Virus record (IMG/VR): IMGVR_UViG_3300024319_000043
Span: 1-33,175 of that record
DNA: 33,175 nucleotides
Reading direction: 5' to 3' (one strand)
Source of the DNA: a virus
Shown here: positions 11,953 through 23,484 of the stretch, piece by piece
How positions within the stretch are numbered: the first letter of the stretch is position 1
How the letters are laid out: each line of letters begins with the position of its first letter
Made by a program: the position numbers and the translations under genes
Notes under the pieces: generated by a model
The model's input: only the letters and a program-made list of their open reading frames with translations
What the model was told of the DNA's origin: nothing
The model's database searches: none

Positions 11953-12306
11953 ATGGCAGCTCCTAATATTGTGAACGTAACTACAATCACAGGCAAAACG
12001 GCAGTGCAGGCTGTTGGCACTAGCGCCACGGCAATCGCCACCAACTCTGCGGCAAGCGGTAAGGTGCTGAAGGTCAATGCGCTGTATGTGTCGAATGTGG
12101 ATGGCACAAATAACGCTGAGATTAACGTGGATTTATTCCGCTCAAGCACTGCGTATCACATTGGCAAGACGATTGTTGTGCCTGCCGATGCAACGCTCGA
12201 TGTTATCTCGAAGCCTATCTATCTTGAAGAGGGCGACAGCTTGCGCCTGACTGCCAGTGCGGCATCTGACCTAGAGGCGGTTTGCTCCTACGAAGAGATT
12301 AGCTAA
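11953..12306 (+). CDS. Small virion-type protein, cyanophage-like
   Basis: The protein has 117 residues (APNIVNVTTITGKTAVQAVG at the start, AASDLEAVCSYEEIS at the end). I recognise this as a small structural protein type common near fibre genes of marine phages and cyanophages; its function is unknown. It is predicted to be beta-rich, with no signal peptide. GGAGG sits nine bases before the start, and the stop overlaps the next gene (TAATG). It may form a decoration or a collar for the fibre or adhesin set, as inferred from its place between the fibre and the LamG proteins. Confidence 0.65.
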   Translation: MAAPNIVNVTTITGKTAVQAVGTSATAIATNSAASGKVLKVNALYVSNVDGTNNAEINVDLFRSSTAYHIGKTIVVPADATLDVISKPIYLEEGDSLRLTASAASDLEAVCSYEEIS

Positions 12307-13046
12307 TGGCTGAGTTCCCATCATCCAGTGTAGCTGATGGCGTCTGGACACTGAAGCAGCAGCGCAGGGCATTGCTGGGCAGTGCTTGGCCTGTTGCTGC
12401 TCCGACTGACCAATACTTTGCCAATGTCAGCTTATTGCTACATGGCGATGGCACTGATGGCTCGACTACGTTTACTGATAGTTCTTCTAATAATCTTACT
12501 GTAACAGCAAACGGCAATGCGCAGATCGACACTGCGGTTGTAAAGTATGGCACTGGGTCGATGCAGTTTGGTGCAGTTGGGAATTATATCTCTGTAGCCG
12601 CCGACACAGCCCTTACCTTTGGCTCTGGTGATTTTACTATTGAGTTTTGGGTTTACTTAAACACGCTGTCTGACAATGATTCTATTATATCTCAGGGAAC
12701 ATCTTCACAAAGTGATAACTGGCAATTAGCATATATCAGTAGTCGACTTTATTTTTATTATAGTAACCAGTCAGCTTCACTTGGTTCAACTTCTTTTTCA
12801 ACTGGGCAATGGTATCATATTGCAATGGTTGGAGAAGGCAGCACTATAAAAATTTATGTTGATGGCACTTTGGATGACACTGTTAATTATTCTTATAACT
12901 ATGGGTCGTATGTAACCAGAGTTGGTATAAATCGCGGCGGAACTGAAAACCTTGATGGTTATATTGACGACCTCCGCATCACCAAGGGCATTGCCCGTTA
13001 CACTGCCAACTTCACGCCGCCCACGGCTCCATTCCCAGATCAATGA
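12306..13046 (+). CDS. LamG-type adhesin with short N-terminal tag
   Basis: The protein has 246 residues. Residues 1-29 carry a tag (EFPSSSVADGVWTLKQQRRA ending in WP) that returns in the next two genes. Residues about 37-245 form one concanavalin-like LamG_3 domain: 'VSLLLHGDG', 'DSSSNNLTV', 'FTIEFWVYLN', 'GQWYHIAMV', 'IKIYVDGTLD' and 'GYIDDLRITKGIARYT'. Such domains bind carbohydrate, so a role in host-surface or capsule binding is likely. The middle (12660-12960) is visibly AT-rich compared with its surroundings. It is a paralogue of 13924..15378, with exact shared DNA segments. Confidence 0.75.
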   Translation: MAEFPSSSVADGVWTLKQQRRALLGSAWPVAAPTDQYFANVSLLLHGDGTDGSTTFTDSSSNNLTVTANGNAQIDTAVVKYGTGSMQFGAVGNYISVAADTALTFGSGDFTIEFWVYLNTLSDNDSIISQGTSSQSDNWQLAYISSRLYFYYSNQSASLGSTSFSTGQWYHIAMVGEGSTIKIYVDGTLDDTVNYSYNYGSYVTRVGINRGGTENLDGYIDDLRITKGIARYTANFTPPTAPFPDQ

Positions 13047-13054
13047 GGTGAGAC

Positions 13055-13924
13055 ATGTCGTATCCAACAACATCCTCTGCATCTGACGTTTGGTCTTTAC
13101 GTGATGCTTATAAAGCTGAGGCGGGTGATAACTGGCCTGCATTGCCTGAGCCTTTATCTGTTGATTATCTTATCATCGCAGGCGGTGGTGGTGGTGGTGA
13201 ATGGCAAGGCGGCGGTGGTGGTGCGGGTGGATACCTGACTGGTACAAGCTTGTCACTAGAGACTGGCATAGAATATACAATCACTGTTGGCGCTGGTGGC
13301 CCTCCAAAGGATCGTGGCTCATCAGGAACAACTGGCGGTAACTCTTCAGCATTTAGCCTCACAGCTATTGGTGGTGGTTATGGCGGCGCTAACGATGAAA
13401 ACGGCGGCGCTGGTGGTTCTGGTGGTGGTGCATCCGATGCAACAAGAAGTGGTGGTGCTGCCACAACTGGTCAAGGCTACCGTGGCGGTAACACTTTTGG
13501 CAACGGCGCAGGTGGTGCAGGCGGTGGTGGTGCAGGCGGACAGCCAATTGACATTACGTCATCGTCTCAGGCCAACGTAGTAGCCGACCACTTAGGCGGC
13601 GCAGGTCTTTCATCTAGCATTACTGGCACTGCTGTTCTTCGTGCAAGTGGTGGTAGCGGTGCATTATATAGTGACTCAACTACTGTTGGCCCCGTTGAGG
13701 GTGGCGGTGGTGCAGGTGGTGGCTCGTTCACTGCTGGAACTGCAAACACTGGCGGTGGTGGTGGTGGTAGCTACAGCTACACGCAAGCAGCAGCAGGCGG
13801 CTCAGGCGTAGTAATCATCCGCACTTTATCAACCGCAGCCTCCACAACAGGTTCACCAACTGTCACGACAGACGGATCGTATAACATCTACACCTTTACT
13901 GGCTCGGGGAGCATCACGTTCTAA
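13055..13924 (+). CDS. Glycine-rich adhesin-like protein with same N-terminal tag
   Basis: The protein has 289 residues. The N-terminus (SYPTTSSASDVWSLRDAYKA, then GDNWP) is the same tag as in its neighbours. After the lead-in VDYLIIAGGGGGG, residues about 45-255 are mostly Gly runs with Ala, Ser and Thr, and the end is 'SYNIYTFTGSGSITF'. This matches the glycine-rich surface domain found in phage tail tips, where poly-glycine helices form a receptor-binding sandwich (known for S16 gp38-type adhesins). No enzyme motif is seen. The start has GAGGTGA upstream, and the stop overlaps the next ATG. Confidence 0.7.
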   Translation: MSYPTTSSASDVWSLRDAYKAEAGDNWPALPEPLSVDYLIIAGGGGGGEWQGGGGGAGGYLTGTSLSLETGIEYTITVGAGGPPKDRGSSGTTGGNSSAFSLTAIGGGYGGANDENGGAGGSGGGASDATRSGGAATTGQGYRGGNTFGNGAGGAGGGGAGGQPIDITSSSQANVVADHLGGAGLSSSITGTAVLRASGGSGALYSDSTTVGPVEGGGGAGGGSFTAGTANTGGGGGGSYSYTQAAAGGSGVVIIRTLSTAASTTGSPTVTTDGSYNIYTFTGSGSITF

Positions 13925-15378
13925 TGGCACAGTTTCCTTCATCATCATCGGCATATGGCATCTGGTCTTTGAAAGAGCAGCGTGACGCTGTGCGTGGAGA
14001 TAACTGGCCCTTATACACACCTCCAAGCGATCCAAACTTTTCTGATGTCAGCTTATTGCTGCATGGCGATGGAACAAGCGGTGCGCAGAACAACACGTTC
14101 CTCGACAGCAGCACTAACGACTTTACCATCACCCGCAATGGTAACACCACGCAGGGCAGTTTTTCCCCATACAGCGTGTCTGGCCCGTATAACCCTGCAA
14201 CACACGGCGGTAGCGGGTATTTCGATGGGAGTGGGGACTATCTGTCGATATTAGATAACACTGCATTTGACCTAGAAGGTTCTGATTTTACTATAGAATG
14301 TTGGGTTTACCTTAACACTTATGGCAGCAATTCATTTTCTGCGCCTGTAAGTAAGTGGGTTACTGGCATCCAGTCATGGACAACGTATATAAGTTCTAGT
14401 TCTATTATCTTCTCATATTCGCCTGATGGTTCAGCAGCTAGCTATGTAAACTATACTGCTTCTGTATCTAATCCTTTAAGCACATGGAGCCATTACGCTT
14501 TCACACGTTCAGGTGATACACTTTACATTTTTAAGGATGGTGTTCTTATAAACACTTTTTCTGTAACTGGTCTGGTTATACCAAACCGAACCAGCGCCTT
14601 GCAGATTGGCGCAACAAACAATGGCGGGTATGGAAACTTAAACGGCTATATAAACGACCTCCGCCTTGTCAAAGGCACAGCCCTCTATACATCTGCCTTC
14701 ACCCCACCAACCGCACCCCTCACTGCGGTATCTAACACATCGCTTCTGTGCAACTTCACCAACGCAGGCATCTTCGACAGCACTGGCAAGAACGTGCTTG
14801 AGACTGTGGGCAATGCGCAGATCGACACTGCGGTGACTAAGTTTGGCACTGGGTCGATGGAGTTCGATGGGAGTGGGGATTATTTATTTTCTTCTGCCAA
14901 TACCGCTTTTGACTTTGGGCTGAGTGCTGTTGATTTCACAATAGAGGCTTGGATTTATCCGCAGCAAAACAGAACAGTTCATACGATTGCGGCTGTGTGG
15001 CCCCAAGGTCTTGGCGAGGATCAATGGATTTTTTGCATAAGAGACGGAGTTGTTGGCCTTGTATGGTCGCCAGATAACACAAACGATGTCTTTATAAGTG
15101 GTGGCTCTGTAGCGTTAAATCAGTGGCATCATGTTGCAGTTACAAGAAACGGAAACACTTTTAGGACGTTTTTAAATGGGACGCAAACCGCATCTGGCAC
15201 TAACTCCTCAACATCTGGATCAAGCAACCCACTAACGATTGGATATTTTGGATCGGGGTCTGGAACATCTTCAACCTCTTATTGGGATGGCTACATAGAC
15301 GACCTACGCATTACCAAGGGCGTGGCTCGCTACACCACTAACTTCACCCCACCAACAGACCCATTCCCAGATCAGTGA
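13924..15378 (+). CDS. Double LamG adhesin with same N-terminal tag
   Basis: The protein has 484 residues. The tag (residues 1-29, AQFPSSSSAYGIWSLKEQRD then GDNWP) is followed by two LamG_3 domains, about residues 38-260 and 275-482. Both carry 'FTIExWVYxxx', 'W.H.A.T+.G', a 'DG/NG' turn and a closing 'GYI(N/D)DLR(L/I)(V/T)KG' motif. It looks like a partial duplication of the gene at 12306..13046: parts of the second domain and the C-terminal 'PFPDQ' end are nearly identical in DNA. It is likely a tail-tip carbohydrate-binding protein. Confidence 0.75.
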   Translation: MAQFPSSSSAYGIWSLKEQRDAVRGDNWPLYTPPSDPNFSDVSLLLHGDGTSGAQNNTFLDSSTNDFTITRNGNTTQGSFSPYSVSGPYNPATHGGSGYFDGSGDYLSILDNTAFDLEGSDFTIECWVYLNTYGSNSFSAPVSKWVTGIQSWTTYISSSSIIFSYSPDGSAASYVNYTASVSNPLSTWSHYAFTRSGDTLYIFKDGVLINTFSVTGLVIPNRTSALQIGATNNGGYGNLNGYINDLRLVKGTALYTSAFTPPTAPLTAVSNTSLLCNFTNAGIFDSTGKNVLETVGNAQIDTAVTKFGTGSMEFDGSGDYLFSSANTAFDFGLSAVDFTIEAWIYPQQNRTVHTIAAVWPQGLGEDQWIFCIRDGVVGLVWSPDNTNDVFISGGSVALNQWHHVAVTRNGNTFRTFLNGTQTASGTNSSTSGSSNPLTIGYFGSGSGTSSTSYWDGYIDDLRITKGVARYTTNFTPPTDPFPDQ

Positions 15379-16485: not shown

Positions 16486-16934
16486 CCTTCCGACTTTCAG
16501 GACGCAGCTTGAGCAAGCTGGCAGGCGTGGATGAACATCTGGTAGCGGTAATAAAAACTGCTATTCACCTGACCAAGACTGACTTTGGTGTGATCTGCGG
16601 TGTGCGCACGATTGAGGAGCAGCGCCAGCTAGTAGCCAAGGGCGCCAGCAAAACCATGAAGTCTAAGCACCTGGACGGTGACGCTGCGGACCTCATGGCA
16701 TACATTGGCCCGCGTGGTTCCTGGGAGTTGAGTCTTTACGATGACATTGCTGATGCGATGAAGCAGGCCGCTATTGCTACGGGCGTTAGCCTTCGCTGGG
16801 GTGCAGCCTGGCATATCAATGATATTCGTAAATGGGACGGGACTATGGAAGAGGCGATGAATGAGTACGTTGATCTTCGCCGGTCGCAAGGTAAGCGCCC
16901 ATTCATTGATGGGCCTCACTTTGAGTTGACATAA
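16482..16934 (+). CDS. Endolysin, M15-family L-alanyl-D-glutamate-type peptidase
   Basis: The protein has 150 residues, with the zinc peptidase motifs of the M15C type: SKHLDGDAAD (residues 61-70, His63 and Asp70 as ligands), RWGAAW (105-110) and GPHFEL (144-149, His146). The length fits single-domain endolysins such as the T5 type. No signal peptide is present, so it needs the holin upstream. AAAGGAA precedes the ATG. Its 3' end overlaps the convergent DnaA-like gene by 19 bases, leaving no room for a terminator after the last late gene. Confidence 0.9.
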   Translation: MTFRLSGRSLSKLAGVDEHLVAVIKTAIHLTKTDFGVICGVRTIEEQRQLVAKGASKTMKSKHLDGDAADLMAYIGPRGSWELSLYDDIADAMKQAAIATGVSLRWGAAWHINDIRKWDGTMEEAMNEYVDLRRSQGKRPFIDGPHFELT

Positions 16935-17404
16935 TTCATTACGACATCGGTGATCTGATCCGCAAAGTATTCGGCCATGGTTTCGTATCTTTCTTTGATC
17001 GCTTCATCCACACACTTATCCAGGCATTCTTCGGAGAGCCTGGTATAAAGCAGCTCTGACATCGAGCCTGTCTTCAGGTCTATCTTTCTGAAGACATCTC
17101 CCTTTTTCCGCGCGTATCTCATGGCCTCATGATCCACGTCTTTATGGCAAGGCATTTTCTTTTTGCTAGCTTGCGGTCCTTTTAATAGTTCGCTGTGCCG
17201 ATAGATGCCGTGCGTCACTGACGAGTGGTGGATATTGAAGAACCTAGCAATCTGCCCTGTTGTGTATCCTGCCGCATTGAATGCGTGCATCGCTTCTTGG
17301 CGAGCCCTAACGAGCCTGGCATCTCTGTCTTTGCGGAGCATTTGCTCTACGGTGAGGTGATGCTTCTTGGCCACTGAGAAGAAGATTTCATTGTAGTCTG
17401 TCAT
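16916..17404 (-). CDS. Orphan DnaA domain IV-like DNA-binding protein
   Basis: The protein has 162 residues. Residues 1-27 resemble the helix leading into DnaA domain IV. Residues 28-70 (DARLVRARQEAMHAFNAAGY, then TTGQIARFFNIHHSSVTHGI) match its DnaA-box-binding helices, including a variant of the 'DHTTVxHA' signature as 'HHSSVTHG'. There is no AAA+ domain. The remaining 90 residues are charged and unknown. It could bind DnaA boxes in host or phage DNA and alter initiation. GGAGAA precedes the start. It is the last leftward gene, beyond a strong terminator, so its expression may differ from the rest. Confidence 0.78.
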   Translation of the reverse strand: MTDYNEIFFSVAKKHHLTVEQMLRKDRDARLVRARQEAMHAFNAAGYTTGQIARFFNIHHSSVTHGIYRHSELLKGPQASKKKMPCHKDVDHEAMRYARKKGDVFRKIDLKTGSMSELLYTRLSEECLDKCVDEAIKERYETMAEYFADQITDVVMNYVNSK

Positions 17405-19304: not shown

Positions 19305-19778
19305 TTACTGCTTATGTGCAGCCCTTGCAACATAAGAATCGTAAGGTGCCAGGTTCTCTTCAGTGATGTTGTACTCCTCAATGAGTTTCTTGCGTGCATC
19401 TCCGTGAAGGTATGAATCACACACGGGCATGCCTGAGAGTATTCTTTGTGCGTTCAGGTGGTACCTGTCCAGAGAGGTGGTAGTTGGTGCTGAGCGAGCC
19501 GCTCCGCCGCTCTGAGCTACATTCCTGGCTGCATCTACGAACTCTTTGACCGAAGGTAGGGTTCTGGTGCGCGCGGTTTGCGTTACCTCTTTCGCTATGA
19601 GGGCGACGAGGGAACGCACCCGCTCCGGTGTCGCCTGGTTGGGGATGTTGCTGTTGACTGCTTCGATCACGTCCATTGCAACGAGGGTGGGATCGAGATC
19701 TCGTGGCATGTTGAAGCGACTGATGATGTCAGCCTTGAACCATTCCTTGATGAGATTGATGCGCTGTTCATAGGTCAT
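19305..19778 (-). CDS. Probable replication accessory, helicase-loader position
   Basis: The protein has 157 residues, is helical and has no recognisable Walker motif. It starts inside the 3' end of the O-like gene (11-base overlap), which is the place of lambda P. It shows 'WFKADIISRFNMPRDLDPTL...' at the start, a Thr/Ser linker near 90-105 and a charged helical end. A P-like role, bringing host DnaB helicase to the origin, is inferred from order alone. A simple unknown DNA-metabolism protein is the alternative. Confidence 0.5.
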   Translation of the reverse strand: MTYEQRINLIKEWFKADIISRFNMPRDLDPTLVAMDVIEAVNSNIPNQATPERVRSLVALIAKEVTQTARTRTLPSVKEFVDAARNVAQSGGAARSAPTTTSLDRYHLNAQRILSGMPVCDSYLHGDARKKLIEEYNITEENLAPYDSYVARAAHKQ

Positions 19779-20424
19779 TGATCCATCCGATTACCTTTTT
19801 GGTTTCTGCTTTCTCTGACTCGAGGTCATCTTCCCAACGCTCACCGTTAAGCCAGGTCGATGGGTGTGGGATGTATTGTTTCTCTGTGCCCATCTCATCG
19901 CAGTGCTGGGAATAATGAAGGGCGCCCTGGATTATGGTATCACCGTCAGCAAACTTGAGAGCTTTGGCAAACGCAGTACGCGCAGCACCCTTGCCAATGC
20001 GTCGAGGGTAGGCATGCCAGAACGCTTGGAAGAACGCTGTGTTGCCTGGATGGGAAGATTTTTCCGGGGAAGTAGTTATAACTTTATTACTATTAGCTAA
20101 CTCTAGCTTAGTAATATTACTTACTACTTCGGAGGAAGATTTTTCCTCATGGTCCATGTCGTACTCCTTCATTGAGTTGATGATGTAAAAGTTCGATGTG
20201 TTCGGGCGAGCGATGACTTCGATGTATTCGTTCTCCGCAAGCCACTTGATTGCAGTGCGGACTGTTCGATCGCTTATGCCTGTGTCTTCAGCAAGCTTAG
20301 GCTGAGAAGGGAAGCATTCACCTTTTGAATTTGAGTAGGTGGCAAGTGCCAGAAGGACCGCTTTCGCAGTCACATTTTTTATTGGCATAAGCGCAATGTC
20401 TACGATAAGATCATAGTCAGTCAT
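19768..20424 (-). CDS. Lambda O-like replication initiation protein
   Basis: The protein has 218 residues. Residues about 17-82 form a winged HTH ('CFPSQPKLAEDTGISDRTVRTAIKWLAENEYIEV'), the HTH_36 type found in phage initiators. Residues 92-130 are a Ser/Asn/Lys linker encoded by very AT-rich palindromic DNA. Residues 131-200 carry the C-terminal initiator pattern 'FFQAFWHAYPRRIGKGAA...YIPHPSTWLNGERWEDD'. It would bind the phage origin, probably within its own gene as in lambda. AAAGGA lies upstream of the ATG. Confidence 0.82.
   Translation of the reverse strand: MTDYDLIVDIALMPIKNVTAKAVLLALATYSNSKGECFPSQPKLAEDTGISDRTVRTAIKWLAENEYIEVIARPNTSNFYIINSMKEYDMDHEEKSSSEVVSNITKLELANSNKVITTSPEKSSHPGNTAFFQAFWHAYPRRIGKGAARTAFAKALKFADGDTIIQGALHYSQHCDEMGTEKQYIPHPSTWLNGERWEDDLESEKAETKKVIGWINDL
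20053..20146. other. Candidate replication origin inside the O-like gene
   Basis: Two identical 13-mers, GGAAGATTTTTCC, sit at 20053..20065 and 20134..20146. Inside them an 8-bp inverted repeat (GAAGTAGT at 20069..20076, ACTACTTC at 20123..20130) brackets 46 bases that are about 78 percent A+T. That stretch itself can fold, with TTACTA/TAGTAA and AGCTA/TAGCT pairing. Position within the initiator's linker codons matches lambda ori. Confidence 0.55.
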
Positions 20425-23146: not shown

Positions 23147-23484
23147 GTGCTTTCCTTTTCGTTTTAAATTTCGCAGGCGATCTCGGCACCGGCAGCTGCC
23201 GCTACAGATTCAATCCCCCGCGTGGCCCCCGATGACCCTCGCCACCAGCGTTGTCCTGTGTGTCTGAGAGACCTGGGTTCTGGGTGCTTCGCTCGCAGCT
23301 GAGAGACCTGGGTTCTGGGTGTTCCCGTTGATAGCTGGGCACTCTCAACGGCTCAGCCAGGATCAACTTCAGCCATCCTAGTCCCTGTCAGGAGAAGCAG
23401 GCTAGAGAGCGAGCGAAGCGAGCGGAAAATTTTTTGGGCCACCCTCTCGAGTGACCCGCCATTGTTTCCGCTATTTGGTGTGGT
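23147..23484. other. Gene-free, GC-rich gap with repeats
   Basis: No convincing frame is present on either strand. The gap holds a pair of 23-base direct repeats (23264..23286, 23299..23321). It also holds a 6-bp hairpin (CGTTGA/TCAACG near 23327..23351) and a repeat-rich GAGCGAGCGAAGCGAGCG stretch near 23409. A stem GGGTCAC/GTGGCCC near 23440..23461 lies beside an A6T4-type tract on the minus strand. It separates the 155-residue gene from the run of small leftward genes and may hold a leader or second promoter. Confidence 0.6.
23264..23321. repeat. Two 23-base direct repeats
   Basis: The unit starts CTGAGAGACCTGGG and ends TTCTGGGTG. Copies lie at 23264..23286 and 23299..23321, identical, 35 bases apart start to start. 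The 12-base spacer contains GCTTCGCTCGC. Two copies are too few for a CRISPR array. Protein-binding iterons or an RNA leader element are possible. Confidence 0.8.

Follow-up and report, generated by a model that had tools for sequence, protein, structure and literature searches.

The window analysed here is a 33,175-base IMG/VR marine phage record that represents a genome or near-genome, in which the structural genes (terminase, tail, and capsid-like proteins) lie on one strand and the replication block runs leftward. At 12306-13046 and 13924-15378 (plus strand), it encodes two related proteins that resemble each other in sequence at their beginnings and ends; the longer has LamG/concanavalin-like domains, and both probably belong to the virion surface or to fibres. 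A 23-base direct repeat (CTGAGAGACCTGGGTTCTGGGTG, 35-bp spacing, 23264-23321) is present in non-coding DNA upstream of the leftward early genes. The replication block contains a gene for an O-like replication initiator (Table 1), and this protein has both the winged-helix N-terminal domain and the family profile of the PHROG 270/HTH_36 phage initiators (Pfam HTH_36, E=2.9e-15; PHROG 270, replication initiation protein, E=4.2e-46). In the AlphaFold model, a confident winged helix is followed by a disordered linker (residues 88-125) and a helical C-terminal domain; the numbering of the recognition helix is derived from this predicted structure. A sequence search for a solved relative of the initiator returned weak winged-helix matches only, and a fold search returned generic winged helices and no solved full-length relative. 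The product of the next gene, for which neither a family match nor a meaningful fold match was found, may be a helicase loader by its position.

Table 1. Features of the replication block and of the element within the initiator gene.
Feature	Position	Strand	Basis or remark
O-like replication initiator gene, 218 aa	19768..20424	-	HTH_36 winged HTH, disordered linker, and C-terminal domain
Recognition helix, residues 52-64	20233..20271	-	AlphaFold model helix; residues 53, 56, and 57 covary with half-site bases
Linker codons with the candidate origin element, residues 88-125, pLDDT < 50	20050..20163	-	AlphaFold model; synonymous trough in the homologous stretch of five families
Candidate initiator site 1, GAGGAAAAATCTTCCTC	20132..20148	-	Contains the 13-mer at 20134-20146; centre 20140
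Candidate initiator site 2, CCGGAAAAATCTTCCCA	20051..20067	-	Contains the 13-mer at 20053-20065; centre 20059
Inward-facing GAAGTAGT beside site 1, one inverted-repeat arm	20123..20130	-	Its AAG is in 51/51 distinct cores
Inward-facing GAAGTAGT beside site 2, other inverted-repeat arm	20069..20076	+	Its AAG is in 47-48/51 distinct cores
A+T-rich core, 78.3%, probable DNA-unwinding element	20077..20122	.	Base composition
Next gene downstream, 157 aa, helical	19305..19778	-	In the relatives checked, it adjoins the initiator gene; candidate helicase loader (P-like position)
DnaA domain IV homologue (Bac_DnaA_C)	16916-17404	-	End of the replication block; in only 13 fetched loci

A preliminary description of this DNA had reported twin 13-mers around an 8-bp inverted repeat and a 46-base core of about 78% A+T, placed in the linker between the DNA-binding and C-terminal domains of the O-like protein. 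The coordinates and composition were confirmed, as was the placement, by the HTH_36 match and the modelled linker. No exact copy of the 13-mer GGAAGATTTTTCC besides these two occurs in the record, and the two sites are 81 bp apart from centre to centre. To the earlier account it can be added that each 13-mer is itself palindromic (GGAA n5 TTCC) and that an inward-facing AAG stands beside each of them. The 8-bp inverted repeat (GAAGTAGT / ACTACTTC) is exact, the 24-base arms at 20053-20076 and 20123-20146 are 75% complementary, and 5 of the 33,130 46-base windows of the record reach the A+T content of the core.

The 13-mer repeat alone is weak evidence, since 4 of 100 versions of the full record with shuffled dinucleotides contained a 13-base direct repeat at a distance of 20-100 bp, and the real record holds three other such repeats. 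When synonymous codons were shuffled with the protein preserved, 2 of 1000 trials reached the observed palindrome-plus-match score, which assumes a 5-base gap and an odd centre; the score was short of significance for three relatives (L004, L189, and L190), each with at least one imperfect site. An Rfam search of the window gave no matches. GC skew, which had been suggested as a means of mapping the start of replication, did not show a clear switch at the element, and it is uninformative as an origin marker because this stretch is confounded by gene direction. The strong evidence for the element is comparative and does not come from the window alone.

The protein and an alignment were both used to scan viral contigs for relatives; nearly all of those collected are metagenomic contigs, and their identity ranges from 100% down to about 30%. 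Across dozens of distinct relatives, two matching palindromes lie around an A+T-rich stretch in the linker of nearly every one. Counted from its centre (0), a site generally consists of a half-site at -6 to -3, five bases, and the complement at +3 to +6. The window and L186/L188 have GGAA as the half-site, L264 has GGCA, and L059 has TCGC, and large groups of relatives have TGCC, TGCA, TGAC, or TGTC. Of the expectation that the 13-mers would be conserved, the palindromic form was borne out, but the 13-mer as written is specific to its lineage. In 51 distinct cores, the centres are 63-87 bp apart, the DNA between the sites is 67-83% A+T, and an inward AAG occupies +11 to +13 beside the left site in all 51 and beside the right site in 47-48. 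When the inner flanks are compared as inverted copies, 7.25 of 12 bases are alike, against 4.9 for shuffled flanks. Helical phasing of the two sites was rejected: the spacings vary in 3-bp steps through all helical phases, so that no fixed rotational relation between the two complexes can be required.

One imperfect site is seen in a few relatives (L004, L010, L186, L188, and L198). In L186 and L188, where a looser site finder picked the wrong sites and the assignment was made by eye, the second site is a hybrid, GGAAAAATyTGCA, with one half of the GGAA type and the other of the TGCA type, which is possibly a specificity shift in progress. In some distant relatives (L249, L258, L259, L260, and L410), the linker repeats look clustered or tandem and not bracketing. 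No such element is present in Pelagibacter phage Hodr, which by terminase is the closest cultured relative and in which no initiator homologue was detectable, or in Methylophilales phage MEP301, which has a weak winged-helix match only.

Ten whole records of 22-45 kb (five TGTC, two TCGC, and three TGAC) each hold exactly two copies of the palindrome of their own lineage and zero copies of reversed-pattern controls, and in cross-checks the palindrome was absent from records of another lineage. A blind search of 303 loci (1.69 Mb) for two identical palindromes with inward AAG gave 236 matches; every one was of a palindrome type already known, and low-A+T cores did not occur among them. In a forward test, DNA patterns alone were run against 2.9 million viral contigs; the TGTC pattern found 108 contigs and the GGAA pattern found 4, and at all 111 loci analysed from these DNA-only scans the element is contained in an O-like gene. 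The TGAC scan found 21 contigs in which the gene is split and which, wherever their helix was read, have R53 and R57; it also found the distant phage L410, whose winged-helix protein has tandem TGACAC..GTGTCA repeats in its linker. Since the element is recognisable from DNA alone, it can serve to mark putative origins in viral metagenomes.

The sequence of the half-site follows that of the recognition helix. Among 61 distinct DNA-binding domains, Arg at residue 57 goes with C at base -3 in 53 of 53 and Thr or Ser with A in 8 of 8; the adjusted mutual information of this pair is 1.00 with S and T merged and 0.90 unmerged, and that of the next best column is 0.29. Further pairs are Arg56 with G at -6 (4/4), Ser53 with T at -4 (24/24), and Ala53 with CG at -5,-4 (3/3). 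These counts come from related sequences and are not independent, and how often the base has switched is more informative. A tree from which the helix and linker were left out requires at least five switches at -3, and the GGAA lineages do not form one group on it. In the forward test, S53 and R57 were found in 103 of 103 TGTC loci with an intact N-terminus, and R53, R56, and S/T57 in 4 of 4 GGAA loci, three of which had not been used in forming the rule. Because the half-site bases covary with recognition-helix residues, the 13-mers are read as probable initiator sites, in agreement with the preliminary description.

The same description had conceded that part of the repetition could be coding, and in its full form this explanation would place the repeats at the protein level only, as a selected linker peptide (EKSS) with the DNA repetition secondary to it. 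In the window, both copies are indeed read in one frame and give EKSS. However, the encoded pairs, EKSS/EKSS in the window, are EKSS/ETIS in L398 and L399, ENIS/ENIS in L397, and unrelated elsewhere, and hence vary across lineages and even between the two copies of one gene, while the paired palindromes, the A+T core, and the inverted AAG...CTT persist. Synonymous sites are frozen at the element: in five families, the synonymous differences inside it are 0.24, 0.47, 0.20, 0.22, and 0.00 of the residue-matched expectation, for four families no resample out of 10,000 gave a value as low and for the fifth 49 of 10,000 did, and in four of the five the lowest synonymous window of the gene is on the element or within a few codons. 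The linker is, moreover, predicted to be disordered, and the layout survives a split of the gene, which in the L069/L077 lineage yields a 93-aa winged-helix ORF and a 136-aa ORF with the element at the start of the second. Therefore, the DNA and not the peptide is under selection at the element, and the earlier prediction that sites and dyad persist while linker residues drift is borne out. In view of the synonymous constraint and the change of peptide with the palindromes kept, the repeated-peptide explanation was rejected and has hardly any chance of being correct. Split initiators, with the winged helix in one ORF and the linker and C-terminal domain in the other, occur in L077 (5986-6667), L069, L076, L165, and L400-L417; the ORFs overlap by a few bases, and the element is retained at the start of the second. 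An additional stretch separates the two ORFs in L074.

Taken together, the conserved layout, the synonymous constraint, the uniqueness of the pair in each genome, and the covariation support the original interpretation of an intragenic origin with initiator sites: the element is very probably a phage replication origin within the coding sequence of its initiator, the winged helix of which would bind two lineage-specific palindromes bracketing an A+T core. From these sequence comparisons we infer both origin activity and protein binding. With one site per side and two altogether, the element has fewer than usual, which counts against the origin reading, as do the few relatives with one imperfect site and, subject to the confounding noted above, the lack of a clear GC-skew switch. 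The palindromes might instead serve autoregulation or partition-like roles, as an intragenic operator or roadblock, and have no part in opening; paired palindromes bound by a winged helix would fit operators too, and covariation indicates cognate binding, not its purpose. Such a role is nonetheless unlikely, since the pair is deep within a coding sequence, on either side of the record's most A+T-rich stretch, the protein is in a replication-initiation family with a conserved C-terminal domain, and there are no further palindrome copies near promoters. It is very unlikely that the two-site origin is real and yet opened mainly by host DnaA or by the DnaA-like protein of the phage. The window and some relatives do encode a DnaA domain IV homologue, and AAGTAGT resembles trinucleotide origin motifs, but that gene is confined to few loci (Table 1), the palindromes track the helix of the O-like protein, and no DnaA box is near the element, the nearest consensus matches, and the only ones in the window, being at 1936 and 14011. 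Host DnaA boxes were rejected for this reason, and DnaA-trios were rejected by inspection, as the AAGTAGT repeats are without trio polarity next to either site.

If the element is an origin opened by its own initiator, the winged helix would bind each palindrome, probably as a dimer, and the bound initiator would open the A+T-rich core, which would be clamped from both ends with one dimer per side. The C-terminal domain would then bring in the replicative helicase, perhaps via the product of the next gene. One possible, though rather doubtful, elaboration is a mirror-symmetric minimal origin in which there is one dimer per side, each with a separate inward AAG(TAGT), the sites serve one fork apiece, there is no phasing between them, and the residue-to-base code (53, 56, and 57 with -4, -6, and -3) has been rewired repeatedly in nature. 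In lambda, an initiator dimer occupies each palindromic site, supercoiling and binding open the A+T tract, and the helicase is loaded (PMC5043065, PMC7466680).

Lambdoid origins are located inside O and consist of iterons and an A+T-rich tract (PMC5043065; PMC7466680). The present element shares with the lambda and Stx origins its location within the initiator gene, palindromic sites (here putative initiator sites), and an adjacent A+T-rich region (PMC5043065, PMC7466680). In those phages a replication partner gene comes next, and here the initiator gene is followed by a conserved helical gene that is a candidate partner by position. It likewise lies in the initiator linker between domains, with an A+T-rich tract beside the sites (78% in the window and within the range given for the 51 distinct cores), and the palindromic form and helix covariation would fit dimer-bound iterons. 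However, lambda has 4 iterons and Stx phages 6, described on one side of the A+T-rich tract, whereas the window and its relatives have exactly two sites, placed on opposite sides of the tract and accompanied by a mirrored AAG motif, unlike those origins; a covariation code of this kind is not reported in PMC5043065 or PMC7466680. The lambda-like reading thus holds for an intragenic origin in the linker with an A+T tract, but not for tandem sites on one side, and the element is classed as a variant of ori-lambda since it would work like ori-lambda and fails the feature of a one-sided iteron array. The bracketed layout pulls apart two questions that are tangled in lambda, namely how many initiator sites are needed and whether phasing or one-sidedness is required. 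In the open-licence literature, neither a description of a bracketed two-site layout nor a study devoted to these phages was found.

The lactococcal phages BK5-T, P335, and PLgT-1, and the cultured phages PL-1, Pam4, phiPsal1, and Abidatro, also have a winged-helix initiator with linker repeats, often beside an A+T-rich stretch. In those examined, the repeats are tandem or clustered, and none brackets the A+T-rich stretch with two copies. In each of the initiator genes of BK5-T, P335, and PLgT-1 (L086, L087, and L095), the A+T-rich stretch ends with a perfect 18-bp palindrome of one family (TATCGGACTTGTCCGATA / TATCGGACAAGTCCGATA), and the repeats of PLgT-1 are unlike those of BK5-T and P335 despite this common family. 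SaPI origins have repeats on both sides of an A+T-rich stretch, as here, but their initiator is a helicase-type Rep, unlike the present one. A precedent for initiator and origin covarying as cognate partners is the V. cholerae satellite PLE, in which the DNA-binding domain of RepA and the origin covary and swaps show cognate pairing (PMC8263062). PLE RepA differs in that it belongs to the RepA_N family and acts at an origin in a noncoding region with clustered iterons, and only two specificity groups are described (PMC8263062), whereas the compact element of about 100 bp described here is part of a large natural series of matched initiator-origin pairs from uncultured marine phages, and the specificity rule suggested by its residue-base pairing can be tested by swaps.
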